Assembly: GCA_017474515.1 (NCBI GenBank)
Contig: JAFVHN010000011.1
Coordinates: 1-62,361 of the forward strand
Source: Prevotella sp.
GTDB lineage: Bacteria; Bacteroidota; Bacteroidia; Bacteroidales; Bacteroidaceae
DNA: 62,361 nt
Direction: 5' to 3'
The notes under the pieces are model-generated. The model was given only the letters and a program-made list of their open reading frames with translations, had not been told where the DNA came from and ran no database searches. Positions within the stretch are counted from its first letter, which is position 1. Each line of letters starts with the position of its first letter. Positions 37,509 through 55,015 of this stretch are shown one piece after another. A program made the translations under genes and the position numbers.

Positions 37509-37683
37509 GTAGGGACATACTTTATGTATGTCCGAAATCACAGGAATGTGCCGAGGCGGGCGGACATACATAAAGTATGTCCCTACATGCATGAATTTGC
37601 CCTTTTTTTCGGAATATTTTATGTATGTCCGAAATCACCGGAATGTGCCGAGGCAGGCGGACATACATAAAGTATGTCCCTAC
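37509..37683. repeat. Tandem pair of palindromic 78-bp elements
   Basis: The first element has perfect 26-bp inverted arms (37509-37534 and 37561-37586; outer half GTAGGGACATAC) around a 26-nt loop. The second element (37618-37683) has the same right arm and loop but has lost about 12 bases of the left arm. The preceding GAATTTGCC and T-run plus CGGA context is also duplicated, giving a tandem period of about 98 bp. The form is that of a miniature palindromic element. Confidence 0.85.
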
Positions 37684-37742
37684 GCTTTCGTGAAAAACCT
37701 GAAATTCGGGACGTCGGTTGTGGGCGTGATGTGTCATTCAAC

Positions 37743-37784
37743 AAAAAAGCCTGCGGCACATTGGGTGGTGCCGCAGGCTTTTGG
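37743..37784 (-). terminator. Terminator of the FAS1/SusCD operon
   Basis: On the minus strand GCCTGCGGCAC and GTGCCGCAGGC form a perfect 11-bp stem followed by TTTTTTG. It lies 31 bases after the last SusD stop codon. Confidence 0.9.
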
Positions 37785-37809: not shown

Positions 37810-39636
37810 CTATTGCCCTATCTGCCCGTTCCATTGCAGGTACCAGTTGCGCGGGTCGCTCAGGTCCTTGCCTATTTCTCCGCGCATGGCGTCGATGTTG
37901 TCCTTTCCGTGTCGCGAGCAAACCTGGCGTTGCAGGAACTGGCCCGGGTTGGACTGCTTCATGGCGAAGCGCATGATGTCGTAGAAGCGTGTGCCCTCGA
38001 AGGCGAGCTCGAGCGCGCACTCGTCGAGGAGCAGGCTGTCAACGAACGCCTTCTGAATGGGGTTCAGCTCGGCCTCGGTCATCAGCGAGTCTTCGGGCAG
38101 GCGGTAGTATTCGTTCATGGGCGTCCATCCCGAGCCGTGGCTGTGGATGCCTATGGTGTTGTGGTTGGCCGTGGTGCGGTCGTAGGCCAGTTCCTCCACG
38201 GTGAAGATGCCATAGAGCCTTGACGGGAAGTCAATCTGCTTGATCCACAGGGAGTCGGCCTCGGAGCAATAGGGGAACACCTTTGTTGCCATGACGTCGT
38301 TATTGAGTCCTTGCGAGAGGATTTCAAAGGCGGCTCGCGGGAAGCCGGCGCCGTTGAGGGCCTCGGCCAGGCGCAGGTAGAGCATAGAGCGGCGGTAGAT
38401 GCGCACATGCTGCGTGTTTTGCTTCGAAATGTACGACACCTCGATGCGCTCGCCCGTGTTGCGGTCGTAGGTGTAACCTTCGTCGTAGTACCTGTAGAGT
38501 CGCAGGTCGCCGCTCATGTGGTTGCTCAGGCCGCTGGGTGCATAGCTCACGGTGGTTCCGGTGGAGCCTATGCAGCAGTGCTTTTGCGACTCCGAGAGGT
38601 TGAACATGCCTGTTGAGGGCACGAGGCTGACGTGGTAGTTGTTGTCCTCGCGGGCATAGAAGAGGTTGCGCAGCTCGCTATAGTTGCCCTCTGCGGGGAT
38701 GGAGTCGCCGGCGATGACGGTGATGACTTCCGCGTTGTCGTTATAGGCACCGGGTTCGAGTGTTCCCGACGTCCAGCCCACGGTGTTGTTCCATGTCGTG
38801 GAGCCCGGCTTCCAGGTGTAGATGTTGAGCCCTACGGGATAGGATGAGTTCTCGCCGTTGCGCTCGTTGATGTACTTGTAGTAGCGAATGGCCGCCTGGC
38901 GATACTTGGCCTGGTCGCCGGTGGCGCTGGCGAGCCACAGGTTGAGGTCGCCCAGCACGATGTTGACCGGGAAGAAGAGCAAACGCGAGCTGAGACCGCG
39001 AATGGTGCCGTAGCCGGGATACTGGTTGCCCCAGCGCTCGGCCAGCGGCGTGAGGTCGTTGATGAAATATTCGCAAACGGCCTGCAGGTTGTACTTGGGA
39101 TAGTCTTTCTCGGTGTCGATCTTGTTGAGGATGGGCTCGGTGACGAAGGGCACGTTGCCGTAGTTGAGCACCAACTGCAGGTAAGTCCATGCGCGGATGG
39201 CTTTCACGGCCACATATTCGCGCATGAAGATGTACTCGTTGCGGTTGTTCTTCAAGGCCGTGTCGGCATGGGCGATGAAGTAGTTGCAGTTGTTGATGAC
39301 GGCGTAGTAGTCGCGCGGCTGGTTGTAGCGGTTGTCGTCGCCGATGTTGAAGAGCGCCACGTCGCGCAGGTCGCTCGTTGAGGTACTGGTGACATCTACG
39401 AGGTCGCCGCGCACCTCTCCGAGCACGATGGTGCGGTCGGCAATGGCCTGCAGCTTGTCGAGAATGCCGGTGACGCTATAGATGGTGTCGGTGGCATTGT
39501 CCAGGTGGTTGACATCGGTGAAGATGACATGCTCAGACTGCTGGTCGAAGAAGTCGGAGCAGGATGCACAGAGGGCACAGAGCATGCCGAGTGCCCACAG
39601 TCTGCCGCCTTTTATTTTGATGCTTTTTGTAATCAT
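37810..39636 (-). CDS. SusD/RagB-family lipoprotein, last gene of the FAS1 operon
   Basis: The 608-aa protein has a signal sequence with a Cys-rich end (LCALCASCSDFFDQQSEHV) in which SCSD fits a lipobox. SusD features include YVAVKAIRAWTYLQLVLNYG, YPKYNLQAVCEYFINDLTPL and near the C-terminus ELAFEGTRFYDIMRFAMKQ. It lies 31 bp after its susC. No glycosidase is linked, so the ligand is unknown. The paired terminator and palindromic repeats follow. Confidence 0.92.
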   Translation of the reverse strand: MITKSIKIKGGRLWALGMLCALCASCSDFFDQQSEHVIFTDVNHLDNATDTIYSVTGILDKLQAIADRTIVLGEVRGDLVDVTSTSTSDLRDVALFNIGDDNRYNQPRDYYAVINNCNYFIAHADTALKNNRNEYIFMREYVAVKAIRAWTYLQLVLNYGNVPFVTEPILNKIDTEKDYPKYNLQAVCEYFINDLTPLAERWGNQYPGYGTIRGLSSRLLFFPVNIVLGDLNLWLASATGDQAKYRQAAIRYYKYINERNGENSSYPVGLNIYTWKPGSTTWNNTVGWTSGTLEPGAYNDNAEVITVIAGDSIPAEGNYSELRNLFYAREDNNYHVSLVPSTGMFNLSESQKHCCIGSTGTTVSYAPSGLSNHMSGDLRLYRYYDEGYTYDRNTGERIEVSYISKQNTQHVRIYRRSMLYLRLAEALNGAGFPRAAFEILSQGLNNDVMATKVFPYCSEADSLWIKQIDFPSRLYGIFTVEELAYDRTTANHNTIGIHSHGSGWTPMNEYYRLPEDSLMTEAELNPIQKAFVDSLLLDECALELAFEGTRFYDIMRFAMKQSNPGQFLQRQVCSRHGKDNIDAMRGEIGKDLSDPRNWYLQWNGQIGQ

Positions 39637-39667
39637 AATTCCTGATATCTAATTGCTCATTACTTAA

Positions 39668-42600
39668 TTACAGTTTAATCTTGATGCCTGCCACGAAGGA
39701 GCGGCTTTGTCCGAGCTGTCCCACGTCGATGCCCTGGCCGATGACGCTGGAGGTCATTGAGAACTCGGGGTCGCTGCCAAGGTATTTGGTCAGTGTGAAC
39801 ACGTTGTTGGCCTGCACCCAGAATTGCAGTCCCTGCAGGTATTCGCTGGTGAGTGGCAGGTCGTAGCTCAGCGTGACGGTCTTCAGCCGCAGGTAGCTGC
39901 CGTCCTCAATCCACCGGTTGCTGAATCGCGAGTTGCCCAGGGGGTCCTGGAAGGTGATTTGCGGAATGTCGGTCTGCTGGCCTTCCACCTGCCAGCGGCG
40001 CACGAGTGCCGTGGTCTGGTTCATGAACCGCGAGCCACCCTCGAGCTGGGAGCGCTGGTAGTTGAACACGTCGTTTCCGGCGGCGTAGTTGAAGCGCAGG
40101 TTGAGCTTCAGACGATTGTACGACAAGGTGGTGAAGATGTTTCCGTAGATGTCGGGGTTGGGGTCGCCGATGACCATGCGGTCGGCGTCGGTGATCTGAT
40201 GGTCGCCGTTGACATCGACGTAGTGAATGTCGCCGGCCTTGTAGTAGTTGCGGTCGATGCCGTTTTCACCCAGCACATAGAGTCCGGCAGCCTCTGCATC
40301 AGCCGTGGTGGCGAAGACGCCGAGCGACTTGTGGCCGTAGAACAGGTTGGCGGCCTGGCCCACCTCGGTGCGGATGGTGGCGCCGTAAACATTGTTGTCG
40401 ATGTGGCCGACGCCGTCGGGCAGTTGCGTAATCTCATTCTTGTAGTGGCCGATGCTTCCGCCCAGTTCCCATTGGAAGTTCTTCATGGCCAGCACCTTTA
40501 CCGTTGCCGAGGCGTCGAAGCCGATGTTCTTCAGCTTGCCGTCGTTGGTCCAGTTCTGGTTGAGTCCGCTGAGGAAGCCCAGCGACTGGCGGGTGAGCAG
40601 GTTGTCGGTGGTGGAGCGGAAGGCGTTGAGGCCTAGGCTCAGGCGGTTGTTGAACAGGCTGGCCTCCAGGCCGATGTTCATGCGGCGGGTGGTTTCCCAC
40701 TGAATTTTTGTGTTGCCGATGCCGTCGAAGCTGACGCCTGCAATGGTGTTGAGGAATTGCGAGGCGCTGAAGTAGCTGCGTGCGGCATAGTAGTCAATGT
40801 CGTCGTTGCCGCTGACATCGTAGCCGGCGGTCAGTCGCAGGAAGTTGACGGCCTTCACCTTGGCCATCCACGGCTCGTTGCTTATCACCCACGAGGCCTG
40901 CACGCCGGGGAAGATGCCCCATGCTGCGTCGAAGAGGCGGAGGTCGCCGCCGTCGCGTCCGAAGCGCGAGGAGCCCTCAACGGTGAGGTTGGCCTGCAGG
41001 AAATAGCGGCTCTTGAAGTTGTATTCGGCTTGGGCGTACCAGGCCAGCGAGTTCCATTTGTCGTTGGTGCCGAAGTCGTTGGAGTTGGCCAGCTCAGACT
41101 TCATGAACGGCGTTTTGTCGTTGCCGGTGTTGTAGCCCAGCAGTGAAGTCATGGAGTAGGTTTCCCAGTTGATGCGGGCACCGGCGAAGAGGTGGATGAA
41201 GTGTGCGTTGTAGCGGTTGTGCCAGTCAAGGCGCGTGTCGCTCATCACCGAGTTCTGCTTGGAGGCCAGCGAGCGCACTTCGTTGTCGCGGTAGGCGCCG
41301 ATGCTTCCCACATAGTAGCTGGGCGTTCCGTTGATGGGGATGTAATACGTTTCGTTGGAGTTCACCAGGTTGTAGCTGAAGTGCTCCTGGATGAAGAAGT
41401 TGTTGGTGAACTGGTACTTCGGCGTTACCGAGAGGTTGAGCATTGAGTTCTCAAAGCGGTTCTTGTTCTCGGCCTCGCTGTACTCGTTGATGGCGGCGGG
41501 GTTGCCCAGCTTCCAGTTGTAGTTCTTATAGTTGACGAGGGCCTCCGAGAGATACGACTCTTCCTCAATGTCGTAGTGGGTGTCGGAGAGCCGGCCGCGG
41601 CCATAGCTGTAGGCACTGAGGAACGGGCTCTTGGCATAGGCAAGGAATGCCGGGGCCGTGGGCGTGCCTTCGTCGTAGCCGGCGGGTGCGCCGTCGTTGC
41701 GGATGTCGCGGGTGATGTTTCCGAAGGAAGCGTCGAAGCGGATGCCGAAACGGTTGCTGAGCGTAATGTCGGTGTTGAAACGGATGTTCAGCCGCCCCAT
41801 GTCGTTGTACTTCAGCGTGCTCTGCTGGTTGACGTAGCCTACCGAAAGGTTGTAGTTGGCCACGGCGTCACCGCCCTCGATGCTGATGCCGTAGTTCTGC
41901 GTCAACGCCGTGTTGCGGTAAACATAGTCTTTCCAGTCGGTTTGCTGGTGGTACTGCGTGTAATAATAGTAGTCGGGGTTCTCGTTGAGGAACTTGAATG
42001 TGCGGTTGCGGGTGTTGGTGGTTTTCAGCAACTCCGACGCGTAGCTCCTGTAGCGCTCGGCGTCCATCATTGACAGGAACTTGGGCTGTGTGACGACACC
42101 TGCCGAAACATTGGCCGTGATGCGGGTGGCCATGGACTTGTTGCGGCGGGTTTGCACCAAGATTACGCCATTGGCACCCTTGGCACCGTAGAGTGCCGTT
42201 CCGTTGCGCACCACGGTGACTTTCTCAATGTCGGAGGGGTTGATGGCCGAAAGCACATCGTTGAAGAACCCTTCGTGGAGCATGGTGCGCCCGTACTGCT
42301 GGTCGATAATGACGTCATCGACGACCACCAAGGGCTGGGCGTTGACATTCAGGGAGTTGAGACCCTGAATGAACATCACGTTGCCAATGCCGGGCGTGCC
42401 GTTGCGCGTGATGCTGTAAACCTGTGCGCCCAGTTGGTTTTCCACCTCGTCCTTGATGTTGACGGAGTTGGTGTAGCTGAGGTCGTTGGTGGAATAATCG
42501 CCGCGGACATTGATTTGCTGACCATATTCGGGCGAGAACGCCGTGGGGTATAGCTTCACTTCCTGCTGCACCTCACCGTCTTGAAGTCCCAGCCGCACGG

Positions 42601-42913
42601 GGTTGAAGTCGGGCGATTGGGCAAAAATCGATGATGTGAACACGGGCACTTCCAGTCTGAAGATGCCGTTGTCGCCTGTGAGCGTGCTGTAGCCTTCTAT
42701 GTTGTCGGCACTGATAATCGTACCAGCCACTGGCATTCCCGTGACGGCATTGACAACCCGTCCGCTCACAACCCTTGTGGGATATTGCTTATGCTTGGGC
42801 TGCAACTTGCGTGAGAGGGCCACCAGGACATCCTCGTCTTCATCGTTCTGCGCAGCAATGAACAAGGGGAAAGCCATCAGCATTGTCAGGCTGAATATAA
42901 TAAATTTCTTCAT
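39668..42913 (-). CDS. SusC/RagA-family TonB-linked transporter, second of the FAS1 operon
   Basis: The 1081-aa protein has a signal peptide (MKKFIIFSLTMLMAFPLFIAAQ), a carboxypeptidase-regulatory-like domain (VVSGRVVNAVTGMPVAGTI), a plug (SDIEKVTVVRNGTALYGAKG) and a barrel ending in GIKIKL. The region between signal peptide and regulatory domain (NDEDEDVLVALSRKLQPKHK) is unusual for the family, and the canonical DEVVV(T/I)GYG TonB box is not apparent. It differs clearly from the first SusC of this operon, so the two pairs are not a recent duplication. Start 42913 begins the signal peptide. Confidence 0.93.
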   Translation of the reverse strand: MKKFIIFSLTMLMAFPLFIAAQNDEDEDVLVALSRKLQPKHKQYPTRVVSGRVVNAVTGMPVAGTIISADNIEGYSTLTGDNGIFRLEVPVFTSSIFAQSPDFNPVRLGLQDGEVQQEVKLYPTAFSPEYGQQINVRGDYSTNDLSYTNSVNIKDEVENQLGAQVYSITRNGTPGIGNVMFIQGLNSLNVNAQPLVVVDDVIIDQQYGRTMLHEGFFNDVLSAINPSDIEKVTVVRNGTALYGAKGANGVILVQTRRNKSMATRITANVSAGVVTQPKFLSMMDAERYRSYASELLKTTNTRNRTFKFLNENPDYYYYTQYHQQTDWKDYVYRNTALTQNYGISIEGGDAVANYNLSVGYVNQQSTLKYNDMGRLNIRFNTDITLSNRFGIRFDASFGNITRDIRNDGAPAGYDEGTPTAPAFLAYAKSPFLSAYSYGRGRLSDTHYDIEEESYLSEALVNYKNYNWKLGNPAAINEYSEAENKNRFENSMLNLSVTPKYQFTNNFFIQEHFSYNLVNSNETYYIPINGTPSYYVGSIGAYRDNEVRSLASKQNSVMSDTRLDWHNRYNAHFIHLFAGARINWETYSMTSLLGYNTGNDKTPFMKSELANSNDFGTNDKWNSLAWYAQAEYNFKSRYFLQANLTVEGSSRFGRDGGDLRLFDAAWGIFPGVQASWVISNEPWMAKVKAVNFLRLTAGYDVSGNDDIDYYAARSYFSASQFLNTIAGVSFDGIGNTKIQWETTRRMNIGLEASLFNNRLSLGLNAFRSTTDNLLTRQSLGFLSGLNQNWTNDGKLKNIGFDASATVKVLAMKNFQWELGGSIGHYKNEITQLPDGVGHIDNNVYGATIRTEVGQAANLFYGHKSLGVFATTADAEAAGLYVLGENGIDRNYYKAGDIHYVDVNGDHQITDADRMVIGDPNPDIYGNIFTTLSYNRLKLNLRFNYAAGNDVFNYQRSQLEGGSRFMNQTTALVRRWQVEGQQTDIPQITFQDPLGNSRFSNRWIEDGSYLRLKTVTLSYDLPLTSEYLQGLQFWVQANNVFTLTKYLGSDPEFSMTSSVIGQGIDVGQLGQSRSFVAGIKIKL

Positions 42914-42947
42914 ATCTTTAAAATCAATTATCATGGTCATTTCTCGT

Positions 42948-44759
42948 TTACTTCATCAACCAGTAATAGCTGTCGCCATCACCGTGGGGCGCTATGACGA
43001 ACCGCCCGTCGGTGATATTGGCAATGCCGTGAGGTACAAGCATTATGCAGTCGATTGTCATGGTGCGTGTGAACTCGCGGTTGCGCTGTTCCCTGGGTGA
43101 AACATTGGTTTGAACGGTCAAGGTCACTTGCGGTTCCGACTCATAAAGGCCGTAGGAGCAGCAGGGGAACTTGAAGTCCTCGGCAAGGAGCAGGTAGTTC
43201 ACCTGGTCGAGCTCGGTGGTAATGGCCGACTGCAGGATTTCTTCCTTGACATTTCCGTCTTGGTCGTGGAAGCCCAGCGTACACCTCAGCTTCATCGGCA
43301 GGCGCTGGATGTCGGTGGCATTGCTGTCGTTGGCCAGGGCCGGTGCCGTGACAAGATAGATGTCGTAGCCAATGTTGGAGAGCACGTTCTCGATGTTGAA
43401 GATGGCCGTGTGGTTGACGGTGGTCTTCGACTGTTCGAACTCCACGAAGGCGTCGCCCCACACTTTTCCGTAGAAGGAGTTGTCGTTGAGCACCCTGCGC
43501 ACAAGGGGCGTCACGGTGCCCTCCATGTCGTGGGTGGTAGTGTTTTCTTCCTTGCTCACATCCTTGATGCTGCCCTGGTCTTCGGCTTCAACAATAATCC
43601 ACTGGTAGAATGTGTTCAGCTTGTTGATATTCCAATTGCGGGTTTTCATGACCTGTCCGTTGGAACAAATCACATTCTCGGTGCCGTTGAAGATGCCCTG
43701 GGGACCGTACGGCTTCTTGGTGTTGCCGTTGGAGATGCCGCCATACTGATAGTAGTGGAGGGCGTTGCTGCCCCAGTAATACTGACGCGACAAATAAGTC
43801 TCACAGGCCGAGGTGGAAAGGGCAGAGTCGGTGAGGTGGACATCGGTGTTGAGGGTACGGCTGAAAGTCGTGCCGTCAACAATGGCAAGGCGGGCGTTGG
43901 TGTAGGCCAGCGAGTCGCGGTACTTCACCTGGTTGTCGTAGTTGAAATAGGGCTGGTATTCTTCTATGAGCTCCCTCCACACCTCGTTGGTGGGGACAAC
44001 CATCCAGTAAACGCTGTCTTCTTCGTTCAAATCGGCATAAAGATAATCGAAGAGGTCGTTCTGCTGCACAAACACCGAGTCGAGGTAGAAGGTCTTACCG
44101 TCGATGAGACCGCCGGGGACGCTTCGTCCGGGCACGAACTCCTTGCGGTAGAACCGGCTGTTGTAGAAGAAGTTGCCAATGCTGTCGAGGTCGGGGTCCT
44201 TGCGCAGGAACTCAAACACATTGGGGAAATACTTGGCCTTGTGGTCAATGGTAAAGAGGATGCCGTTGTTGTAATGCTGATTGGAATTGGTGATGGTGCT
44301 TCCTCCGAAATTGTTGGAGGAGAACGTCACTTTCTTGCCGTTCATCATTACCAGCGAGTCGTTGCTGGCTGGCGATACGGAATGATTGTACATGGCAATG
44401 TGGTTCTGGATGAACTCCTTGATGACGGTGTTGTCATCGTCGTTGACCTTGCCTTTTTCAGCATTGTAGGCTTGTATGAGCTCCTCTGCCTCCTGTGCAG
44501 AGAAGTTGTCGTTGGTGGGTGCAAACACGGTGAACACCTGGCTGCTGCCCAGCGCCTTGTCGTAGCCGCAGGCCTGCACGACCCTGGCGAAGTTGCTCAG
44601 GTTTCCGTTCTGCGAGATGGCCTGCCAGAGCGAGCAGTCGTTCATGTCCTCGCCTTGGTTGTCGTAGTGGTCATCCCACGTGTCGGAGCAGGCTGTGAAA
44701 GTGAGGACTGCCAGTGCAAGTCCCAACACCTTATTATATATATTATATCTTTTCATCAT
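42948..44759 (-). CDS. Fasciclin (FAS1) domain lipoprotein
   Basis: This 603-aa lipoprotein (lipobox FTAC, followed by acidic SDTWDDHYD) contains a FAS1 domain at about 40-190, with LSNFARVVQACGYDKALGSSQ and the H1-type motif VFTVFAPTNDNFSA, and FTIDHKAKYFPNVFEFLR at its end. A second, diverged FAS1 region lies at about 190-420 (VYWMVVPTNEVWRELIEEYQ). The C-terminal part is a beta-rich domain without a recognised name. FAS1 proteins mediate adhesion or ligand binding. It sits between a FAS1 gene and a susC, with the acidic start after Cys suggesting surface export. Starts at 44759 or 44756 are both possible. Confidence 0.88.
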   Translation of the reverse strand: MMKRYNIYNKVLGLALAVLTFTACSDTWDDHYDNQGEDMNDCSLWQAISQNGNLSNFARVVQACGYDKALGSSQVFTVFAPTNDNFSAQEAEELIQAYNAEKGKVNDDDNTVIKEFIQNHIAMYNHSVSPASNDSLVMMNGKKVTFSSNNFGGSTITNSNQHYNNGILFTIDHKAKYFPNVFEFLRKDPDLDSIGNFFYNSRFYRKEFVPGRSVPGGLIDGKTFYLDSVFVQQNDLFDYLYADLNEEDSVYWMVVPTNEVWRELIEEYQPYFNYDNQVKYRDSLAYTNARLAIVDGTTFSRTLNTDVHLTDSALSTSACETYLSRQYYWGSNALHYYQYGGISNGNTKKPYGPQGIFNGTENVICSNGQVMKTRNWNINKLNTFYQWIIVEAEDQGSIKDVSKEENTTTHDMEGTVTPLVRRVLNDNSFYGKVWGDAFVEFEQSKTTVNHTAIFNIENVLSNIGYDIYLVTAPALANDSNATDIQRLPMKLRCTLGFHDQDGNVKEEILQSAITTELDQVNYLLLAEDFKFPCCSYGLYESEPQVTLTVQTNVSPREQRNREFTRTMTIDCIMLVPHGIANITDGRFVIAPHGDGDSYYWLMK

Positions 44760-44769
44760 TGTCAATTAT

Positions 44770-46860
44770 TTAGAGGTCGTCTTCCATTTCGTTTTCACCG
44801 TCGCCGCCATAGACACTCTTGGGCACCAGTTCCAGGAAGTCGAGGGCGAACTCGTTGTCGTTACCTTGCTTACCGTCGGAGGCCACCCTGATTCTCAAGT
44901 AGTGGTCTTGGCTGGAGTCAAGATACATCTGGCTGATGATGCGCCGTATTGAAATGTCGTAGGTGATGTCGTAGCCCCTGTTGCCTGAGTTGCCGTTGTT
45001 GCAGTACAGGGAGCGCGGGTAGGTGTAGGCACCAAGGTTCTTCAAGGTTTTCTGGTACTCGGCCTTTTCCTCGGCACTCATGTTGTCGTAGTCGGAGAGG
45101 CTGTTGATGAAACCGTCGGAACCTAAGTACATCTCAGAGGTCAGGCTCTTGGTCATGTCCAATGGGATGCCTTGCGGAATGCCGTCAATATAGAGCTGGG
45201 CGACACCACGCGTGGTCTGGGACGTGAAGCCGAGGCGGATTTGCCATTCGCCGTCAAAGGGCACGGGCGGCAGGCGGAAGGTGATGTCGTAGTTTCCGAA
45301 GAGGTTGAACTCGTCCCACTGGTAGATGTCGGCCAGTGAGTGGGGACGTCTCCACAGCAGCACGCAATTGGAGAATGTCACGCCGTCGAGATAACCGGCA
45401 GGGAAATACCAGTTGGGGCCGTATTTCTCTTCCACACCATCCTGGAAGGGGTCGCCCAGGATTCGCAGGCTGTTGCCGATGAATTCGGGGAAGATGGTGT
45501 TGAAGTCCATGCGGATGCGGACATTGTGCACTTTTTCCTGAACATCCTCGCTGAAGGCCACGATGTCATCGACATAGAAGTAATGACCGTTGAGACCGTC
45601 GTAGTTGTATGTGGTCTCGTTTGTCATGTCGTCGATTTTCTGACCTTCAAAGGAGTAGGTGTTGTCGTAGCGACGGTTGATGTAGCGTTGGCCTTTGATG
45701 CTTCCGCCAAGGTATTTGTCAACGGTCACTTTGTCAACCTTGATCATGGTGTGGGGCAGGAGGGTGTAGTGCCAGTCACAGGGGTTGATGAGCGTTTCGT
45801 CAATGCCGATGGCGCCTTCAAAGCCAGCCTTGTTGGTAATCTCCAGCGGGGTGAGGTCGTCGGTGCCGCCGGTGATTTTGTTCAAGATGTGATATTGAAT
45901 GAAACGGCGCAGGGGATTGACACTGTCGGTGAGGTTCTCAAAGCTGTGTCCGGGTGCGTTGACATCCTGAGGATAAACCTTGTCGTAGATTTCGCAGGCT
46001 TTCTCATAGAGTGCGTGAATGTCGCCCTTGGCAATGCCGTATTTCGACTCCAGCACTTCGTCGGGCTCAATGAAGAAGGTGTAGCCGTACTTCTTGGTTT
46101 CGGGCACCACGAATTTCTCGAGGTTGGTGAAATATTCACCCGAGCCTTTGTAGTAGGGTTCGTAAGCCTTGGGATTATAGTCGGGGTCATCGACCAACAT
46201 CACGTCGTTGATGACGCCCGTGGCCACCAGCGCTTTATAGAAAGTGCTGATTTTGGGATTGTCGCGCATCAGGTCAGAGATGTAGCTGTTCGACTTTTCG
46301 ATGACCATGTCGATGGGCTGCATGATGCCGTTCTCCACAGAGTCGTCTTTCAAGTCGAAATAGATATGAGCCAGTCCTTCGAGCATGATGACGGCATTGC
46401 TGTCGTTGTCGAAGCCGGCCGAGGTGGCGATGTAGCGGCTCATCATGTTGACGGTCGGCAACTTGGTGCCAATCATGTCGTAGGTGGTGTACATGTTGTT
46501 GACCAGGTGTGTGCGGGCGATGGTGTCGCAGTCGGCATCGCTCAGCTGTGACACATCGCTGAGCCCGCGCTTCTGAAGGAAGGCGTTGATGGCATCGTTC
46601 GACGGCACAAAGCAGGTGTAATGGCCGTAGGTGGAAAGAAGGTCCATCAGGCCGGCCCTTTCCACAATGGCGGCAAATTCGCTGTATTGCGGACGGTCGG
46701 GGCTCTTCAGATAGTCGCTCATCATCTCACCGGTGAAGGTGTAGAAGTATTCGCTGTCAGGCTCGTCAGAACAACTGGTCAGTATCAGCGTGTTGAGGGG
46801 AGTCAGCATGGCAAAGAGCAGCCCTCCCACGATTCCTTTTAATATAGTCTTACGTCTCAT
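44770..46860 (-). CDS. FAS1-domain lipoprotein with C-terminal beta-sandwich
   Basis: The 696-aa lipoprotein (lipobox LTSC, followed by SDEPDSEY) has a FAS1 domain at about 45-205 (YSEFAAIVERAGLMDLL, YTCFVPSNDAINAFLQKRG), a second diverged one at about 210-440 (ISTFYKALVATGVIND, YGYTFFIEPDEVLESKYG) and a C-terminal beta-sandwich at about 445-690 with GEWQIRLGFTSQTTRGVAQL and FALDFLELVPKS, which resembles ligand-binding jelly rolls. The end is acidic. It follows susD by 11 bp and precedes the next FAS1 gene. Confidence 0.88.
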   Translation of the reverse strand: MRRKTILKGIVGGLLFAMLTPLNTLILTSCSDEPDSEYFYTFTGEMMSDYLKSPDRPQYSEFAAIVERAGLMDLLSTYGHYTCFVPSNDAINAFLQKRGLSDVSQLSDADCDTIARTHLVNNMYTTYDMIGTKLPTVNMMSRYIATSAGFDNDSNAVIMLEGLAHIYFDLKDDSVENGIMQPIDMVIEKSNSYISDLMRDNPKISTFYKALVATGVINDVMLVDDPDYNPKAYEPYYKGSGEYFTNLEKFVVPETKKYGYTFFIEPDEVLESKYGIAKGDIHALYEKACEIYDKVYPQDVNAPGHSFENLTDSVNPLRRFIQYHILNKITGGTDDLTPLEITNKAGFEGAIGIDETLINPCDWHYTLLPHTMIKVDKVTVDKYLGGSIKGQRYINRRYDNTYSFEGQKIDDMTNETTYNYDGLNGHYFYVDDIVAFSEDVQEKVHNVRIRMDFNTIFPEFIGNSLRILGDPFQDGVEEKYGPNWYFPAGYLDGVTFSNCVLLWRRPHSLADIYQWDEFNLFGNYDITFRLPPVPFDGEWQIRLGFTSQTTRGVAQLYIDGIPQGIPLDMTKSLTSEMYLGSDGFINSLSDYDNMSAEEKAEYQKTLKNLGAYTYPRSLYCNNGNSGNRGYDITYDISIRRIISQMYLDSSQDHYLRIRVASDGKQGNDNEFALDFLELVPKSVYGGDGENEMEDDL

Positions 46861-46871
46861 ATCGTTCTTTG

Positions 46872-48635
46872 TTATTTAGTGGTTTTCTGGTAACTTGTAT
46901 CCTCGCCACTGCCGAAGGCCGGGTTTTGTACAAGGTGCGAGTTGACTTTCATCTCGGCATCGTTGTAGGGCCAGTAGATGGCGTCCATCTTTGTCAGGTG
47001 GTTGGAAATGAGCGATGCGCCGATTTTGGCTTTTTGCAAAGCGGCGGCCACCAACGTCGTGGTGTTGCCTTTACGCTGTGAGAGGCGAACAAGGTCGAAC
47101 CATCTCTTGCCCTCGAACATCAGTTCGCGCTGGCGTTCCCGAAGGACCAGGGTTTCCATCCTTTCCTTGGTGTTGTATTGTGCAGCCACCAGGGTGTCGG
47201 TAAGGTTGCTCTGGCAGAGGGCACGCTTGTTGACGGCGTTGACCAATGTGAAAGCCTGGTTCAGGTACGACTTGTTGTAGTCAAGCGTTTCTTGGTCGTC
47301 GCCCTCGCGAAGCAGCTGTGTGAGGGCCTCTGCTTTCAGCAACATGATGTCTGTCAGACGGTAAATAATCCAGTTGGAGCCGTTCTGGTCCTGCGTGTAG
47401 AGCGAACCGTAGGAAATGGTCGGCGTGGAATTGGTCGTGCTGATGTCGATGGTGCGCGTGGTGAACTTGTTGATTGACTGGTCGTCCACGTCGCAGTTGA
47501 AGTACATCCTTGAGTCCAGCTTCTTGTTGCGGTCGTCGAAGACGGAACGGTCTGACGTCTTTTCAATGTCGCTGAAGATGTAGTCGGAAGGAGCCACGAG
47601 GCCTACCGTGGCATTGGCATTGCCGTAGAAGGAGTTGACGGCACCGTTTTGTATCATGCTGTTCACACGCGGCTCGTCGTCGAAAATCAGCTGGAAGATG
47701 ATTTCCTGGTTCTTCTCATCCGTATTGCTCCTGTCGGCACCGAAAAGCACGGTGTAGGCATCTCCGAAATAGTTGCTGGTGGTGGTGTTGCTCACCAATG
47801 GGAAACCGTTGAAACGGCTGTCGCCGTCGCTGTTGGTGAGAATGCTGGAGTTGCGCTGCTGACGGTTCTCTTCGGCAATCTTCTTCTTCGATTCAATCAC
47901 CAGGTCGGCATAGCGGATGCAGCTCCTGTAGTCTTTCTTCCAAAGATAGAGTTCGCAGAGCAGCGAGTGAATGGCGTCCTGAGTGATGCGCCCTGTCTGG
48001 TAAAGAGGCTTGGTGACGGGGTAACGCTTTACGGCATAGTCCTTTACGCCTTCCAGGCTTGTGATGAGCGAGTCCAACACGTCGTCGAACTTGGTGGCGG
48101 GCAGATCCATGGGCTGGTCTTCGTCGATGTAGGCCACCGTGCTGTAGGGAACGTCGCGGAAAGCACGTATCAGGTAGAAGTAGCACAAACTGCGAATGGC
48201 CACCATTTCTGCAATGTTTGCCTGCAGTTCACTTTCGGTGTAGGCCGGGTCTTCGGCGGCCACGCCGGGAGCATATTTGATGACGGTGTTGCACCGGTTG
48301 ATGACAGTATAGAAATCCTTCCACTTGGTGTAACTGTTTTTCGCATCAATATTCTCCATGAGGATTTTCTCAAGATTTCCGTCGTTGGAAACGTTGCTGC
48401 CGGCACCGATGTTGTCGCTGCGGAACTCGCCCCACACCATCATGCGCTTGATAACAGCTTCTTCCTGCAGGCCTGAGTAACAGCCGGCGATGACGGCATC
48501 GACGTCGGCCTTTTCGTTCCAGAATTTCTCAAAGATAATTTCATTGAGGGGCTCTATCTCCAGGAAGTCGGAGCAGGATGAAACGCCGAAGACAGCGCAG
48601 AGAGCACCTAATATATAATAATGTATTTTTTTCAT
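46872..48635 (-). CDS. SusD/RagB-family lipoprotein, first of the FAS1 operon
   Basis: The 587-aa protein starts MKKIHYYILGALCAVFGVSSC, a lipoprotein signal (SSC). SusD signatures include NEKADVDAVIAGCYSGLQEEA, VAIRSLCYFYLIRAFRDVPY, and near the C-terminus LRERQRELMFEGKRWFDLVRLS. It lies 13 bp after its susC. The ligand is unknown. Confidence 0.94.
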   Translation of the reverse strand: MKKIHYYILGALCAVFGVSSCSDFLEIEPLNEIIFEKFWNEKADVDAVIAGCYSGLQEEAVIKRMMVWGEFRSDNIGAGSNVSNDGNLEKILMENIDAKNSYTKWKDFYTVINRCNTVIKYAPGVAAEDPAYTESELQANIAEMVAIRSLCYFYLIRAFRDVPYSTVAYIDEDQPMDLPATKFDDVLDSLITSLEGVKDYAVKRYPVTKPLYQTGRITQDAIHSLLCELYLWKKDYRSCIRYADLVIESKKKIAEENRQQRNSSILTNSDGDSRFNGFPLVSNTTTSNYFGDAYTVLFGADRSNTDEKNQEIIFQLIFDDEPRVNSMIQNGAVNSFYGNANATVGLVAPSDYIFSDIEKTSDRSVFDDRNKKLDSRMYFNCDVDDQSINKFTTRTIDISTTNSTPTISYGSLYTQDQNGSNWIIYRLTDIMLLKAEALTQLLREGDDQETLDYNKSYLNQAFTLVNAVNKRALCQSNLTDTLVAAQYNTKERMETLVLRERQRELMFEGKRWFDLVRLSQRKGNTTTLVAAALQKAKIGASLISNHLTKMDAIYWPYNDAEMKVNSHLVQNPAFGSGEDTSYQKTTK

Positions 48636-48648
48636 AATCATCTCTCCT

Positions 48649-51600
48649 TTAGAACTCAATGGTGATACCTAATGTGTAAGAACGCGAACGAGGGGTCTGC
48701 GCGTTGTCGATAGCCGGAGAATAACCGCCGCTCGAGATGTCGGGGTCAACGCCCGAATACTTGGTAAGAATGAACGGGTTGTTGGCACTGAAATACAGGC
48801 TGGCGCGGTTCAGGCCCAGCGGCGTAAGATATTTCCTGTTGATGGCGTAGGAAATCTGTGCATATCCCATACGCAGGTAAGAGCCGTCTTCCACGAAACG
48901 GTCGCTCACGAGCGTGTTGTAGTTAGAGTTGGAACCGTACATGGCACGCGGGATGGAGGTGATGTCGCCTTCTTTGCGCCAACGGTAGTTCACGGCCTGG
49001 CTCTGGTTGTCGTTGCCAATCATGGCTTCGGCGTGCAGGCGAGCGCGGTTAAGAATCTTGTTGCCCACGCGGTAGGTGAACTGTGTGCTCACGCGCCAGC
49101 TGCCGTAGTTGAAGTTGAAACCGAAACCGCCGGTGAGTTTTGGCAGCGAGGAGCCCAGGTAAACGATGTCGAGGGCGTTAATCTGGCCGTCGTGGTTGAT
49201 GTCCTCATAGATGGCGTCACCACCGTTGAAACGGTAGTTGCGGCCGGTGGCGTCGTTCGTGTAGTTGAACATCATGCGGACCGGATTCCCCTGTCCGTCA
49301 ACAATCACGTCGCCATTGGCATTCATGGCCACGGGAGCGGTCTTGCCCTCTGCAAGGAACTGTGCACGCTCTTCGGGCGTCATGCGCTCGAAGGTGGTGT
49401 AATTGTACTGATATACGCCCTTGTAGCGGAAACCGTAGATGGCTCCCAGCGGGTTGTGCAACTGTACGCGCTGCAGGGTTTCGTCGTTGGAGAAACCATA
49501 GACGGAATTGAGGTTGTCAAGCAGGTTCTCCTCCATTTCCAGGAGCTCGTTGCGGTTGTTACCGAAGTTCACGTTCACATCCATCGAGAATTTCTTGCCG
49601 ATGGTGATCAGGCGGTTGGAGTTGACGTGGAATTCCCATCCCGTGTTGCGCATCTTGCCGCTGTTCCTGTAAGGCACGTTGTCGAAACCGGAGTTGGAGG
49701 GAATAGGATAGTTCGACATCAGCATGTCCGACGTGGTCTGCCGATAACCTTCAATGGTGAGTTGCAAGCGGTCGTTGAAGAATCCGAGGTCAATACCTCC
49801 GTTCCAGCTTTCCACGATTTCCCATTTCAGGTTGGTCAGCCTGATGTTGTTGGGCCTCATGGCCATCATGTCGATGTACCTGTTTGTGGAGCTGTATTTG
49901 GAAGTGTAGAGGTAGTTCTGGCCGGGCTGATGTCCCACGCGTCCCCAGCTGGGACGAATGGCAAACATCGACAGCCATTTCTTCGTGGGCTCCATCCACG
50001 GCTCGTCACTGATAATCCATTTCAACGACAGTGATGGGAAATATCCCCACCGGCTGCTCGGGCCGAATTTGGTTGTTCCGTCGGCGCGGAGCGAGGCGTC
50101 AATGATGTAGCGGCCTTTGTAAGCATAGTGTGCGGCGGCCGTGTAGTACATGGAGCGCGACTGGCCGAAATTGGAACTCAGGCCGGTGATGTTTCCGCCG
50201 CCCTGGGTGGTGGAGATGCCCGTAGGTGCGCCCTGTTTGTCTTCCGACTGGCTCGTTGACGAACCGCTGGTCAGTTCAAAGCGCCCCATCAGCATGGCCG
50301 TGTGGTCTTTGTTCTTGAAGGCGGGAATCAGGGTGAGGGTCTGCTTCGTGTTGAACGACACACTCTTCGATGAACTGTCGTGGGTGGTGTTCACGCCGGC
50401 ATCCCAGCTCACGGTCTTCAGTTCCTGCGGATAATATCTTGTCTGGTAACCGTTGTTGATGTTCATATAAACCGAACCTCTCCAGTTCAGCTGCCAGTGG
50501 TCTTCGTCCATGCCCAGCAGGCGGTACTGGATGATGAGCTCCGGCGTCATGTCGTAGGTGCTTTGCTTGTTTTTTGCCAATTTGGCGCTGGCCACCGGGT
50601 TCACATAGTCTTTCTGGTTGCGGTTGAACACGGAGCTGGCACTCTGCAGCATGGAATAATAAGCAGAAGTGTTTTCGCCGGTGACGGGGTCTTGCTCGTA
50701 GATGGTCATGTTCGGCATCTTCTTCATGGCAATGTCGAGCAGGCCGTCGGAGTTGCGGAAGTTGTTGGTGTAGGTCAGGGCGAAGTTGGTGCTCACGCGA
50801 ATGCGCTCACTGACGTTGTAGTCGAGGGCCACGCGCGTGGAGAAACGCTGCAGCTTCTGCTCAATCATCGTACCTGTTTCGTTGTCGAAACCGGCGCCGA
50901 TGCGGAACAGCGCCTTTTCGCCACCGCCCGAAACCGTGACGTAGTGGTTCTGGCGGAGACCCCACTGGGTGACGGCGTCGCGCCAGTCGGTGTTGTTGTT
51001 GTACTGCTCATACTCCGAGAACGACGGGTCGTAGTTCAATTCCGGAATATTGGCGGCGGCGTCGCTCTGCTCGGGGTTGAAGTACGACTCCTTCAGCAGC
51101 ATGGTGTAGTCGTCACCGTTGAGCAGGTCGTAGCCCTTCGGCTGATAGGTGCCCGTCAGTTTCAATGAGTACTGCAGTCTGGGCTTGCCCATCACACCGC
51201 GCTTGGTGGTGAGCTCAATGACGCCGTTGCCGCCCAGTGAGCCGTAGATGGCGGTGGCGGCGGCATCCTTCAGCACGCGGATGTCGGAGATGTCTTCCGG
51301 GTTGATGTTCAGCAGTTCGGCAAACTTCTCGTTGTTGGCCGACCCGATGTCGAAGTTGTCGAGGCTCACATCCCTCACGTTGCCGTCAACCACAATCAGC
51401 GGGTTGGCATTTGTCAGCGTGGAAAGTGAAGATGCACCGCGCAGGCGGATGGTGGACCCGGAACCGAGGTCGCCGGAGTTTCCGATGATGTCCATACCTG
51501 CGATACGGCCTTGCAGGGCCTCGTCGATGGTGTTGAGGCCCAGGCCTTCAAACTCCTTCGTGGAGATTATCTGCGTGGCATTGGCCACCTCGCGTTGCAG

Positions 51601-51975
51601 GATGGGGAGGCCGTTGCCGCCCACCACGCGCTTCTTGGCCTGAATGACCACTTCGTCGATGAGCTCGCCCTCAGAAACCATCACAATCTGGTAGTTGGTG
51701 CGGTTGATGGGCTCCGTAATGGTTTTTGAACCCACGTAGGTGAAGCGCAGCTTGTCCTTGGGGTTGCGGATTTTCATCGTGAAGTTACCGTTCAGGTCGG
51801 TAATCGTCGATTCGATAACACGTCCGTTGGCGTCCATTTCGCAGACGCTGGCTCCCACGAGCGGGCCCAGTTCGTCGCTCACGTTTCCGTGGACGGAGGT
51901 GATTTGTCCTTGCGCGCTGGCCGCTGTGGCAGTCATCAGGGCGCATAATATAAATATGTATTTAAGAATTCGCAT
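48649..51975 (-). CDS. SusC/RagA-family TonB-linked transporter, first of the FAS1 operon
   Basis: The 1108-aa protein has a signal peptide (ending ASAQGQ), a carboxypeptidase-regulatory-like domain (VHGNVSDELGPLVGASV), a TonB-box-like stretch EGELIDEVVIQAKK, a plug with TIRLRGASSLSTLTNANPLI and IRVLKDAAATAIYGSLGGN, and a barrel ending in LGITIEF. It starts three bases after the stop codon of the first FAS1 gene, so the two are tightly co-translated. With the following SusD it forms a complete import pair. Confidence 0.95.
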   Translation of the reverse strand: MRILKYIFILCALMTATAASAQGQITSVHGNVSDELGPLVGASVCEMDANGRVIESTITDLNGNFTMKIRNPKDKLRFTYVGSKTITEPINRTNYQIVMVSEGELIDEVVIQAKKRVVGGNGLPILQREVANATQIISTKEFEGLGLNTIDEALQGRIAGMDIIGNSGDLGSGSTIRLRGASSLSTLTNANPLIVVDGNVRDVSLDNFDIGSANNEKFAELLNINPEDISDIRVLKDAAATAIYGSLGGNGVIELTTKRGVMGKPRLQYSLKLTGTYQPKGYDLLNGDDYTMLLKESYFNPEQSDAAANIPELNYDPSFSEYEQYNNNTDWRDAVTQWGLRQNHYVTVSGGGEKALFRIGAGFDNETGTMIEQKLQRFSTRVALDYNVSERIRVSTNFALTYTNNFRNSDGLLDIAMKKMPNMTIYEQDPVTGENTSAYYSMLQSASSVFNRNQKDYVNPVASAKLAKNKQSTYDMTPELIIQYRLLGMDEDHWQLNWRGSVYMNINNGYQTRYYPQELKTVSWDAGVNTTHDSSSKSVSFNTKQTLTLIPAFKNKDHTAMLMGRFELTSGSSTSQSEDKQGAPTGISTTQGGGNITGLSSNFGQSRSMYYTAAAHYAYKGRYIIDASLRADGTTKFGPSSRWGYFPSLSLKWIISDEPWMEPTKKWLSMFAIRPSWGRVGHQPGQNYLYTSKYSSTNRYIDMMAMRPNNIRLTNLKWEIVESWNGGIDLGFFNDRLQLTIEGYRQTTSDMLMSNYPIPSNSGFDNVPYRNSGKMRNTGWEFHVNSNRLITIGKKFSMDVNVNFGNNRNELLEMEENLLDNLNSVYGFSNDETLQRVQLHNPLGAIYGFRYKGVYQYNYTTFERMTPEERAQFLAEGKTAPVAMNANGDVIVDGQGNPVRMMFNYTNDATGRNYRFNGGDAIYEDINHDGQINALDIVYLGSSLPKLTGGFGFNFNYGSWRVSTQFTYRVGNKILNRARLHAEAMIGNDNQSQAVNYRWRKEGDITSIPRAMYGSNSNYNTLVSDRFVEDGSYLRMGYAQISYAINRKYLTPLGLNRASLYFSANNPFILTKYSGVDPDISSGGYSPAIDNAQTPRSRSYTLGITIEF

Positions 51976-51978
51976 GCC

Positions 51979-54648
51979 TTATTTCCTCCCTACATTATTT
52001 AATTTATCTCTCCAGGGTGTCATTGTTTCACACATCAGCACGCCATCAATCTGATGGACGACGGCATCGGATGCCATGTAGGTTGTGGCAGCGTTTCCAG
52101 AACCCTTGAACCAGTATTCACGGCAGATGCGGTTGTAGAGCCCGTCGGTCTTTACGACATTTCGGGTGTTGCCAAGCACGTCGCGCACCCACATCTGTCC
52201 GCCCTGGTTGTTGACAACAAGGGGATAGAATCGTCCCGTCGTGAGGTTGCGTCTCATGGTTTCGTATGAGTTTTCGTATTTTCCGCCCTCCGGTGCCATG
52301 TTGATGGCAATGGAATGGTCTTGGATATGGTAGCGGATGAAGCTTACGATGATGTCCTTGATGATGTCCTGTGCCTCCTTGGCAGCATCTTCCGAACCCC
52401 ATACCTCGGCCGTCTGGTTCTCATAGTCCTCCCAGGTGGGAAGCAGGCCGTCGTCAATCAGTTTCCGGATTGACTCATTGGTGGGCACGTAGATGGTGTA
52501 GTTGTAGTTGTCGAGCAGGCGCAGGTTCTTGTTGCCCTGGTTGGACAGGCCGGCATTGTAGGTGTTTCTCAACTTCAGTGCCAGCAGGTCGGCACCGTCG
52601 TGGTCGAGAAGGTCCAGGAACTCGTTGAACTCGGGCCTTTCCTGCAATGTCAGGTAAATGGATTTCTCCGTGGTCAATGGCATCTGGTCGTTGATGACGT
52701 AGGATTTACCATTCTGCTTGGTGTATATTTCATCCTGATTAACGGCCAGCAGCTTGTTTCTGTGGTCTATCTGCCATCCGCCGGAGAATGCCAGGCGTCC
52801 GTCGGGAGCCTTGGTCACGCGTACCAGCGTGCCGCCCTTCGACTTGTAGTATTCGTGTCCGTCCTCAATGTCGCCTACAATAATCAGCTGGTCCATCAGT
52901 CGGCTCAGGCAGTCGTAGATGACGGGCATGGCCACGGTTTCCTGAACGATATCGCCCAAGGTGATGTTGCCATATTCATCGATGGTGCATTTGTAGCGAC
53001 GAGCCTGCACGCGCTGGTCAACGTTTTTCCTACCGTCGTAGTAGAATGCGATGACGGTGGGCGACTCCATGCCCGACTCGCTGTCAACGGCGCCATAGCT
53101 GGCGGGGTCGAGGTACCAGAGCATGGCATCGTTCGACGGAAGCAGGAGGCTGTACTTCGAGTCCATGGAAAGCAGATAGGGCAGGAAGTTAAGTTTCAGG
53201 GCCTCACCCGTATAGCTCGACGACTGGAGCGAGGCGGCCGAGATGGCCCAGTAGATGACGTTCATGGTGGTGGGGTGGGCCAGGGCAGGATAAGCCACCG
53301 ACGAGAACTCGGCCGGTGTGAACACGCGGTTCACCATATAGACCACGCCGTTGCAGCCCATGAAGCAGGAGTCCACATCTTCTATCCTAATGCCAAGCTC
53401 TTCCTTGGCATCGTTCAGAATCTTGTCGAATTTCGAGGGAATGGCCTCCGTGAACACCGGCAACATGTTGACGTTGATGAGCTTGGCCAGTGTGGCTTCG
53501 GGAATGCTGTCGATGACGCCGTATTCCTCCTGAAGGTCCTTGCCTTCTTTCTCCCACCAGGTCTCAAGGGCCTTGTTGGTGGGCACGAGCATGGCGCCGG
53601 CATCATAGTTCAGCGTGGTGTTCGTGGTGTTGTTGATATATTGGTTCCATCCCGGGTCGAACCTCAGCATGGCCGTAACGGCCTCACCGTCAGGCGTGGT
53701 GACATTGGTGCCGCCGGCCGACATGTTGCTGAAATAGTGGAGGGTGAACAACGAGTCCTCGTTGTTGTACAGGCGGTTGTATTCCTTTGTGCCGTCACTA
53801 ATAAAATAAGGTGCACAGAAACGGTCGAGCAACTGCGACCATCGCGACAGGTCGGGGTGCTGGCGGATTATCTCTGCCATGTTGGGCGACGACTCTATCA
53901 CGCCGCTCACCTTCTGTATGTAGCCGTTCTTGCAGGTAATGTCGCGTTCCACGACTTTCTTGCCGTTCACCCAGGCCTCGTTGATGTCGTCGGCCTGGTG
54001 GTTGGTAAGGATGTCGAGGTCCGAAACCGTTATCTTGTTGAGCTTCATGAAGGTGGGCAGGAAGTGAATCATCGGGGCGGCGGTGGCATCCTTCAGGATG
54101 GGAATGCTTTTGTTGCGGCCCTTGAATTTGGCCCATGCCGGCGTTGACGGCATCTGGGCGGGCTTCAGAATCTGCACCGAGTCGAAGATGCTGGTGGCTG
54201 TCTCGCGGCGCATGGTGCGGCCCTCCTCAGGGGTGTTGGCCTCACCCTGGGGCCGTCCGTTCGACATCAGCTCAATAAGATAGGCGTTGTTCACCATTGA
54301 GTTGTTCAGCAACAGCTTCTTTTGCGACAAAGAAAGCTGTTCATAACGGCTCACGCCCCAGTTGTTGTGGGCGAACCATTGCTGAAAAGCCTCGTCGTTG
54401 GCGGCAAACAAAGTTTTCGAGCCGGTATGGCTGAGCACTTCTTTCTGCCCCAAGTCGTCAATCAACCTCAGCATGGTGGTGTAGTTGCCGTCTTCCTCGA
54501 GCCGCTCGTAGATGGAGTTGCCCAGCCATTCGGGCTGACCTGTCAACAAGTCATCTTGACAGCCCTGTAAGGCGAAGGCTCCCATCAGCAGGCCGAAGGC
54601 GGCAACCTTCCAGCGATGCCGTTGTTTTGAGATTTGCTTCTTTTCCAT
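51979..54648 (-). CDS. Multi-FAS1-domain lipoprotein, first gene of the operon
   Basis: The 889-aa lipoprotein (FALQGC as lipobox, then acidic QDDLL) has at least three FAS1-like regions: about 40-270 (NYTTMLRLIDDLGQKEVLS, SKTLFAANDEAFQQWF), a central one with AMLVPTNKALETWWEKEGK and SKYSLLLPSNDAMLWYLDP, and a C-terminal one at about 690-880 (NYTIYVPTNESIRKLIDDG, DAVVHQIDGVLM). The last motif is the H2-type end of a FAS1 domain. It leads the operon, 141 bp after the promoter box, a place where most such loci start with susC. Confidence 0.9.
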   Translation of the reverse strand: MEKKQISKQRHRWKVAAFGLLMGAFALQGCQDDLLTGQPEWLGNSIYERLEEDGNYTTMLRLIDDLGQKEVLSHTGSKTLFAANDEAFQQWFAHNNWGVSRYEQLSLSQKKLLLNNSMVNNAYLIELMSNGRPQGEANTPEEGRTMRRETATSIFDSVQILKPAQMPSTPAWAKFKGRNKSIPILKDATAAPMIHFLPTFMKLNKITVSDLDILTNHQADDINEAWVNGKKVVERDITCKNGYIQKVSGVIESSPNMAEIIRQHPDLSRWSQLLDRFCAPYFISDGTKEYNRLYNNEDSLFTLHYFSNMSAGGTNVTTPDGEAVTAMLRFDPGWNQYINNTTNTTLNYDAGAMLVPTNKALETWWEKEGKDLQEEYGVIDSIPEATLAKLINVNMLPVFTEAIPSKFDKILNDAKEELGIRIEDVDSCFMGCNGVVYMVNRVFTPAEFSSVAYPALAHPTTMNVIYWAISAASLQSSSYTGEALKLNFLPYLLSMDSKYSLLLPSNDAMLWYLDPASYGAVDSESGMESPTVIAFYYDGRKNVDQRVQARRYKCTIDEYGNITLGDIVQETVAMPVIYDCLSRLMDQLIIVGDIEDGHEYYKSKGGTLVRVTKAPDGRLAFSGGWQIDHRNKLLAVNQDEIYTKQNGKSYVINDQMPLTTEKSIYLTLQERPEFNEFLDLLDHDGADLLALKLRNTYNAGLSNQGNKNLRLLDNYNYTIYVPTNESIRKLIDDGLLPTWEDYENQTAEVWGSEDAAKEAQDIIKDIIVSFIRYHIQDHSIAINMAPEGGKYENSYETMRRNLTTGRFYPLVVNNQGGQMWVRDVLGNTRNVVKTDGLYNRICREYWFKGSGNAATTYMASDAVVHQIDGVLMCETMTPWRDKLNNVGRK

Positions 54649-54788: not shown

Positions 54789-54796
54789 CAAAATTA
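54789..54796 (-). promoter_or_regulatory. Promoter -7 box (TAATTTTG) for the FAS1/SusCD operon
   Basis: TAATTTTG on the minus strand lies 141 bp upstream of the first FAS1 start in A/T-rich DNA. No comparable box is visible in the very short gaps inside the operon, so it may serve all seven genes. It shares the 367-bp gap 54649-55015 with the divergent promoter at 54914; no gene or clear repeat is seen there. Confidence 0.45.
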
Positions 54797-54913
54797 TAAA
54801 TTTTCTCCTTATTTTATTTAATTTTTTATTCCAAATTTCATATAATTAAAACCATTGATACAAAAAGTAAAGATTTTGTAATATAAAATAATTTTTGTTT
54901 CGCCAAAAATGTC

Positions 54914-54921: not shown

Positions 54922-55015
54922 TGCTAAATCTTTCCCACATGTATTTTTGGGTGAAAACATACATCGAAATTTTCAACATCCTTTTACACATTATTAATAT
55001 TTAATAATCATGATT

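Follow-up and report, generated by a model that had tools for sequence, protein, structure and literature searches.

SusCD loci of the Bacteroidota are generally regarded as modular, with variable partners added to a SusCD pair. Loci with two SusCD pairs have been described for pectin in Bacteroides thetaiotaomicron (PMC8002723, PMC3243724): the description in PMC8002723 places BT4164/65, BT4168/69 and the binding protein BT4167 in the RG-I locus BT4145-83 and also covers the arabinan locus BT0361-65, and BT4164 is given as susC-like in PMC3243724. Adhesion is known for FAS1 proteins from other settings (review PMC6032426), and a Flavobacteriaceae symbiont has been reported to carry two pairs of SusCD genes and also, as a separate finding, to transcribe a gene for a FAS1 protein, which was interpreted in terms of adhesion (PMC10199937). 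Our search of the open-licence full-text literature returned no description of FAS1 proteins in SusCD loci or of the cassette analyzed here; this is weak evidence of absence, and the cassette has probably been little noticed so far.

The cassette lies in a 62,361-nucleotide stretch of DNA from a rumen-type Prevotella, referred to hereafter, at its full length, as the window. It consists of seven ORFs on the minus strand, running from 54648 to 37810 (about 17 kb) in the order FASa-SusC1-SusD1-FASb-FASc-SusC2-SusD2. The ORFs and their Pfam and NCBIfam matches confirm the genes, strand, order and coordinates given in the initial annotation, and its view of a single operon-like unit with surface import as its job is supported. 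Spacing is tight, as had been noted, but successive intervals of 3, -11, 11, 4, 7 and 31 bp give a range of -11 to 31 bp rather than 3 to about 35 bp; the ORFs that open with TTG have an ATG a few codons downstream. The terminator placed near 37743 was recovered by folding as an intrinsic terminator (37740..37783, minus strand) with a 15-pair stem followed by a T run (-32 kcal/mol, z -6.9), equalled by 0 of 200 shuffles; it was not among the matches of a separate consensus terminator scan. The promoter proposed at 54789 fared less well: a TAnnTTTG motif, a possible -7 element (54789..54797, minus strand), is present at 54796, 148 bp upstream of FASa, which makes a promoter there plausible, but the motif occurs 4 times on that strand over 20.5 kb versus 5.4 in mononucleotide shuffles, and all 4 instances lack a TTTG 17-23 bp upstream. 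Domain matches against Pfam and NCBIfam bear out the absence of enzymes inside the operon, and none was found beside it among the flanking window genes tested. A PUL is recognized by SusCD genes linked to carbohydrate-active enzymes, usually with a sensor; relatives of the cassette show this linkage, whereas the window copy does not.

Several other features of the window were recorded. Just past the terminator, at 37509-37683, two near-identical palindromic units of 70 nt lie 97 bp apart, with 26-nt arms of 100% complementarity, like a small mobile or repeat element. Positions 9840-23029 are occupied by another SusCD locus, distinct from the cassette, which includes two GH43 genes and codes for a Reg_prop/HTH_18 regulator. 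On the minus strand, a 1159-aa protein (33228-36707) contains CHB_HEX_C/Fn3_assoc repeats, five in number, and matches DUF5017 weakly; a 1287-aa ORF on that strand (25759-29622) has no Pfam match at E 0.001. An RNA element in the window was rejected, with 0 Rfam matches at the gathering score, as was a plasmid-borne element, with no match in 72,556 plasmid records.

Both SusC proteins are SusC/RagA TonB-linked outer-membrane transporters. SusC1 (48649..51975, minus strand) and SusC2 (39668..42940, minus strand) score 679 and 512 bits against TIGR04056, for which the curated cut-off is 368, and each contains a TonB plug. Each adjoins a SusD/RagB lipoprotein, SusD1 (46872..48659, minus strand; likely ATG start 48641) and SusD2 (37810..39636, minus strand), with SusD_RagB scores of 84.4 and 33.5 bits against a cut-off of 23.1. 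SusD1 matches solved SusD homologues at 7e-19, while SusD2 is divergent, its match extending over 36 residues, and is conserved in position. These assignments suggest TonB-driven uptake by both SusCD pairs.

The three remaining genes encode lipoproteins, all with a Fasciclin domain above the Pfam gathering score (45.5, 47.4 and 53.6 bits versus 22); no further Fasciclin match was obtained in the window's own assembly (3.51 Mb, 88% complete). FASa (51979..54648, minus strand; 889 aa) matches Fasciclin at residues 55-145 only, and the domain was found in 19/19 of its homologues. Its AlphaFold2 model (pLDDT 86.7) aligned to TGFBIp over 863 columns (E 3.1e-21) with an rmsd of 14.4, so the domains match those of TGFBIp in order and not in arrangement. 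In 67 sequences, conservation reaches 90% or more for Cys30 and for three NG motifs (residues 241, 433 and 646); N839 is conserved too, and profile comparison of FASa parts supported FAS1 in domains 1 and 4 and did not find it in domains 2 and 3. As modelled, FASa is a probable four-FAS1 protein laid out like periostin and TGFBIp. FASb (44770..46860, minus strand; 696 aa), with Fasciclin at 57-187, gave a model (pLDDT 86.7) that matches the FAS1 pairs of TGFBIp (1.6e-11) and fasciclin I (3.4e-9), and its profile matches periostin at 6e-16. It also matches beta-sandwich modules, namely the xanthan-binding module MiXBM (1.1e-6, TM by target 0.67) and CBM35 structures (Xyn30D CBM35 4qaw, 6.6e-5; 2w47, 5.2e-4; 4qb2, 9.8e-4; also 2w1w), with TM by target of 0.53-0.60 for 2w47, 2w1w and 4qb2, at low coverage and an rmsd of 7-14 Å; the Foldseek match list carries no residue ranges, and we infer that these matches belong to the strand-rich part at 483-680. 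The model of FASb hence resembles two FAS1 domains followed by a C-terminal CBM35-like sandwich. FASc (42948..44765, minus strand; likely ATG start 44759), with Fasciclin at 55-175, has a probable second FAS1 domain (57-72% probability in profile comparison) and a C-terminal part without fold assignment, which shows no profile link to that of FASb (probability 7 at best). Structure prediction, initially suggested for each FAS1 protein with its neighboring SusCD pair, covered FASa and FASb as single proteins and revealed FAS1 folds.

Gene order and Fasciclin matches support the placement of these proteins in the slots of SusE/F-type binding proteins. FASa and FASb do not appear to be routine SusE/F homologues: no SusE or SusF structure is among the 50 listed fold matches of FASb, and the significant matches of FASa are to FAS1 only. 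Acidic residues after the lipobox cysteine are a surface-export signal. The five lipoproteins of the cassette (FASa, FASb, FASc, SusD1, SusD2) keep the lipobox cysteine almost without exception, and at least two acidic residues follow it closely in 10-20 of the 27-28 sequences per family, as counted by a crude script with some misplaced matches, which suggests that the cassette lipoproteins are exported to, and exposed at, the cell surface.

Matches to FASa and FASb across many relatives reject the idea that the cassette is an oddity of a single strain. FASb was matched in 13 of 60 relatives (13/36 in the same genus and 0/24 in other families at that threshold) and in 99 of 151 genomes of the family. 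The FASa profile matched 168 of 398 genomes of the same genus, 92 of 151 in the family, spread over 16 of 30 genera, and 16 of 393 in an order sample; at a looser threshold it matched 8 of 395 in a phylum sample, and seven of these 8 belong to two families that share the class of the window genome but not its order. All these tallies include the window genome and are lower bounds: one genome (G024) was negative in the FASb search of relatives and in the genus FASa search, yet carries a divergent cassette. The best 80 loci of a named-genome scan belong to Prevotella, Prevotellaceae, Bacteroidaceae or Paraprevotella MAGs, many from ruminants, and also to Hallella seregens ATCC 51272, Prevotella communis E15-14 and Xylanibacter brevis ATCC 19188.

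We determined gene order in 70 stretches, comprising the window, 30 same-genus stretches, 20 from the order level, 8 from two outside families, 10 from cultured strains (three genomes) and L237, which views locus G064 a second time and coincides with L183. We counted order on six-frame profile matches because picking the longest ORF puts antisense ORFs into some slots (L088, L089, L090, L101, L108 and g378). The canonical order was present in 55/70 stretches, a count that describes the surroundings of FASa and FASb genes, since loci were chosen by a match to one or the other. All 8 stretches from outside the Bacteroidales (seven genomes of two families) are canonical, so that the search for the same gene order elsewhere in the Bacteroidota, as initially suggested, found it in two families beyond the order. 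FASb comes first in three stretches (L177, L181, L182), and 12 show neither arrangement: five are cut by contig or stretch ends (L040 and L041 from one genome, L043, L174, L179), two keep the order but have a gene split over two ORFs (L056, L176), L180 has no FASb in place, L167 (tandem pieces) and L183 are rearranged or cut, and L059 and L060 hold solo FASb-like genes (L059:8763-10178 and L060:7059-8492, without SusCD, in two same-genus genomes). Four further genomes with weak FASb matches carry the cassette in 4/4 cases; in one of them SusC1 is split over two ORFs, and in another an antisense ORF masks SusD1. Given this recurrence, the seven-gene order is far beyond chance. L087 and L140 contain a tandem FASb duplicate within the cassette.

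The two SusC proteins share 23.5% identity, which is no more than the 25.4% that SusC1 shares with a further SusC encoded in the window. A tree built from 68 SusC sequences shows SusC1 to be monophyletic (30/30, support 1.0), as is SusC2 with its 32 cassette members (30 and two further; support 1.0), and six other SusC fall outside both clades. The strong difference noted at the outset thus holds, and a simple duplication of one SusCD pair is rejected by the identity and the separate clades. Window copies are 35-37% (SusC1) and 31-33% (SusC2) identical to outside-order copies. By sequence, SusC1 and SusC2 form distinct clades, both of them old; together with the identities to outside-order copies, this suggests that the seven-gene block has a long history and was passed on as a unit, by inheritance or by transfer. 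A bolder view, which we hold as doubtful, is that the cassette forms a single double-barrelled complex in which a four-FAS1 scaffold, FASa, and two FAS1/CBM-type binders would join two unrelated SusCD importers. Such an architecture would be ancient and would serve large, branched glycans of plants; it would have been passed down through the Bacteroidia as one block, with exchanges of the flanking enzymes giving it new targets. It is somewhat unlikely that two SusCD systems merely share an operon and induction by a ligand, with each FAS1 protein serving one pair and no common machine. SusC1 and SusC2 are indeed unrelated beyond the family level, and copies that are rearranged (FASb first in the three stretches listed above; L180, L167) fit such a loose association, but the seven-gene order is kept across orders with one-to-one positional orthologues, and a copy with one SusCD pair and all FAS genes is absent from the 70 stretches, end-cut ones aside. 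In the preferred reading, both pairs would act jointly.

SusCD genes in general sit near glycan enzymes. The neighborhoods of relatives do not support the initial proposal that the system as such lacks degradative genes: plant-wall enzymes lie beside 9/10 cultured-strain cassettes. For eight of these, Pfam confirmed glycan enzymes in the flanks retrieved; a ninth adjoins a GH51 gene found by tblastn, and the tenth is near a contig end. The enzyme sets comprise GH43/GH43_C2, GH30, a SASA esterase and hybrid two-component sensors in one case; PL11, GH28 family and a GDSL esterase in a second; GH51, GH43 and GH127 in a third; and GH36, melibiase and GH2 in a fourth. PL11, GH106 and GH28 were classed as rhamnogalacturonan enzymes, GH43 and GH30 as xylan enzymes, and GH51 and GH127 as arabinan enzymes. 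Flanks were retrieved for five outside-order loci, and those of all but G771 were run against Pfam; two loci carry GH106 and GH28, one of the two also PL11, esterases were found in two, and two loci contain a xylose-isomerase-like barrel gene that by eye looks like rhamnose isomerase. The ten genes tested next to same-genus copies include one PL11 (L055), one GDSL esterase (L047) and two sensor-type propellers, with no other glycan enzyme among them; three of the ten have no Pfam match or a non-carbohydrate family at each of several loci. PL11 lies on the same strand 3-7 kb upstream at no fewer than 7 FASa places. In 86 upstream stretches we found a GH51-type gene in 14, always with a 1200-aa gene, the 1200-aa gene alone in 37, a divergent gene in 10, a 772-aa gene in 8 and a mixture in 1; 3 stretches were short and 13 matched none of six reference genes. 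One GH51 gene tested contains CBM_4_9 and, by eye, a GH43-like end. The secreted protein of about 1200 aa upstream of many cassettes (L074:6026-9630 region and relatives) shows three similar CBM-like repeats by eye, with no Pfam match for the L081 copy and a weak DUF5013 match for the L110 copy. Near one cassette, a Cas9-like gene (L297:4676-8872) was recognized by eye.

The window falls in a clade of 18 (support 1.0), whose sister group of 7 includes every GH51-linked member at that node, four in number (support 0.999). A gene divergent from the cassette is present in 9 of 14 labelled members of the window clade and absent in 5. In the window this is 55010..56764 (plus strand), encoding a 584-aa secreted protein homologous to the divergent upstream gene of relatives, with 28.6-34.8% blastp identity at near-full coverage to the products of ten of them. 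Its C terminus looks, by eye, like a T9SS sorting tail. It has no Pfam match and no solved structure up to E 0.1; the divergent gene of relative L065 matches CBM_4_9 at E 3.6e-4, below cut-off, and the window product may be weakly CBM4_9-like. Of 112 ORFs selected from the flanks of window-clade cassettes, 3 were excluded for their size; the remaining 109 gave 56 Pfam families, and the 25 commonest of these contain no GH or PL. The lack of enzymes thus characterizes this clade and is probably secondary. The commonest families include arginine and proline synthesis, and the cassette lies between argC- and argD-like genes in several window-clade loci, sitting between arginine/proline synthesis genes in L064, L066, L069, L073, L095 and the downstream loci L286-L291. 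In another genus, it stands by eye among housekeeping-like genes. Enzyme linkage is thus not universal, being lacking beside the cassette in the window clade and one other genus. Elsewhere in its own genome, the window strain has four strong GH51 and eight PL11 matches.

Because the order recurs in distant relatives, often beside plant-wall enzymes, the cassette is probably an old plant-wall-sugar uptake machine, and we put at about 0.72 the probability that it is an ancient SusCD import core for plant-wall oligosaccharides with FAS1 lipoproteins in surface-glycan-binding slots. Since SusCD genes are generally found near such enzymes, the enzyme neighbors support glycan uptake and not a special mechanism. 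The FAS1 lipoproteins, of which FASb has a CBM-like C-terminal domain, would bind polysaccharide of the plant cell wall, or pieces of it, at the cell surface and pass oligosaccharides on to both SusCD pairs for import by TonB energy. Glycan binding by these proteins and a ligand of the plant-wall glycan class are what this scheme predicts, and the old unit would have been reused for several branched glycans: rhamnogalacturonan-I, xylan, arabinan and galactose-containing glycans. The window copy would work without neighboring enzymes, on oligosaccharides released by enzymes encoded elsewhere or by neighbors, perhaps helped by the divergent secreted protein. Its ligand may tentatively be arabinose-decorated oligosaccharides, the weakest step of the proposal.

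The initial annotation offered a host-derived ligand and an adhesion machine as options; no evidence for either was found, and the C terminus of FASb resembles carbohydrate-binding modules. A surface machine adhering to plant particles, protists or host tissue, with import secondary, is improbable. FAS1 proteins do mediate adhesion elsewhere (PMC6032426), and the predicted layout of FASa is that of the four-FAS1 proteins periostin and TGFBIp, but the canonical unit always contains two complete SusCD importers, enzymes and sensors neighbor it in relatives, and no adhesion genes were noticed nearby. We consider very improbable an importer of a non-glycan or glycoprotein ligand, such as an arabinogalactan-protein or a lipophilic compound held by FAS1. 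The FAS1 carotenoid-binding proteins 8c18 and 22iy are among the fold matches of FASa and FASb, and the window clade lacks local enzymes; these carotenoprotein matches, however, reflect the shared FAS1 fold, and both the glycan enzymes beside relatives and the CBM-like domain of FASb speak for a carbohydrate.

On the preferred reading of a plant-wall oligosaccharide importer, a fixed seven-gene unit extending from Prevotella to families outside the Bacteroidales suggests that some SusCD loci have an indivisible core, and FAS1 proteins as its invariant members point to a likely job for FAS1 domains in bacterial glycan uptake. Many genes of rumen Prevotella labelled 'fasciclin' or 'hypothetical' would become testable as surface-glycan-binding proteins.

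The cassette shares with SusE/SusF-type surface glycan-binding proteins the operon slot after SusD and the presumed role, and differs from them in the fold matches of FASb given above. With periostin, TGFBIp and Drosophila fasciclin I it shares, through the FASa model, an alignment along all four FAS1 domains, but its proteins are bacterial lipoproteins in a transporter operon, at about 13-15% identity, and FASb has a CBM-like domain. The two-SusCD pectin loci of B. thetaiotaomicron, as described in the sources cited above, resemble it in having two SusCD pairs and a surface glycan-binding protein, and the published description of the RG-I locus places two genes between the pairs, as FASb and FASc are here, a likeness of layout that comes from that description only; those loci carry their own enzymes, whereas the window cassette does not. 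Like the SusCD/RagAB importers of Bacteroidota at large, both its SusC proteins match TIGR04056, both its SusD proteins match SusD_RagB and lipoproteins follow; unlike them, it unites two unrelated pairs with three FAS1 lipoproteins in a fixed seven-gene unit.
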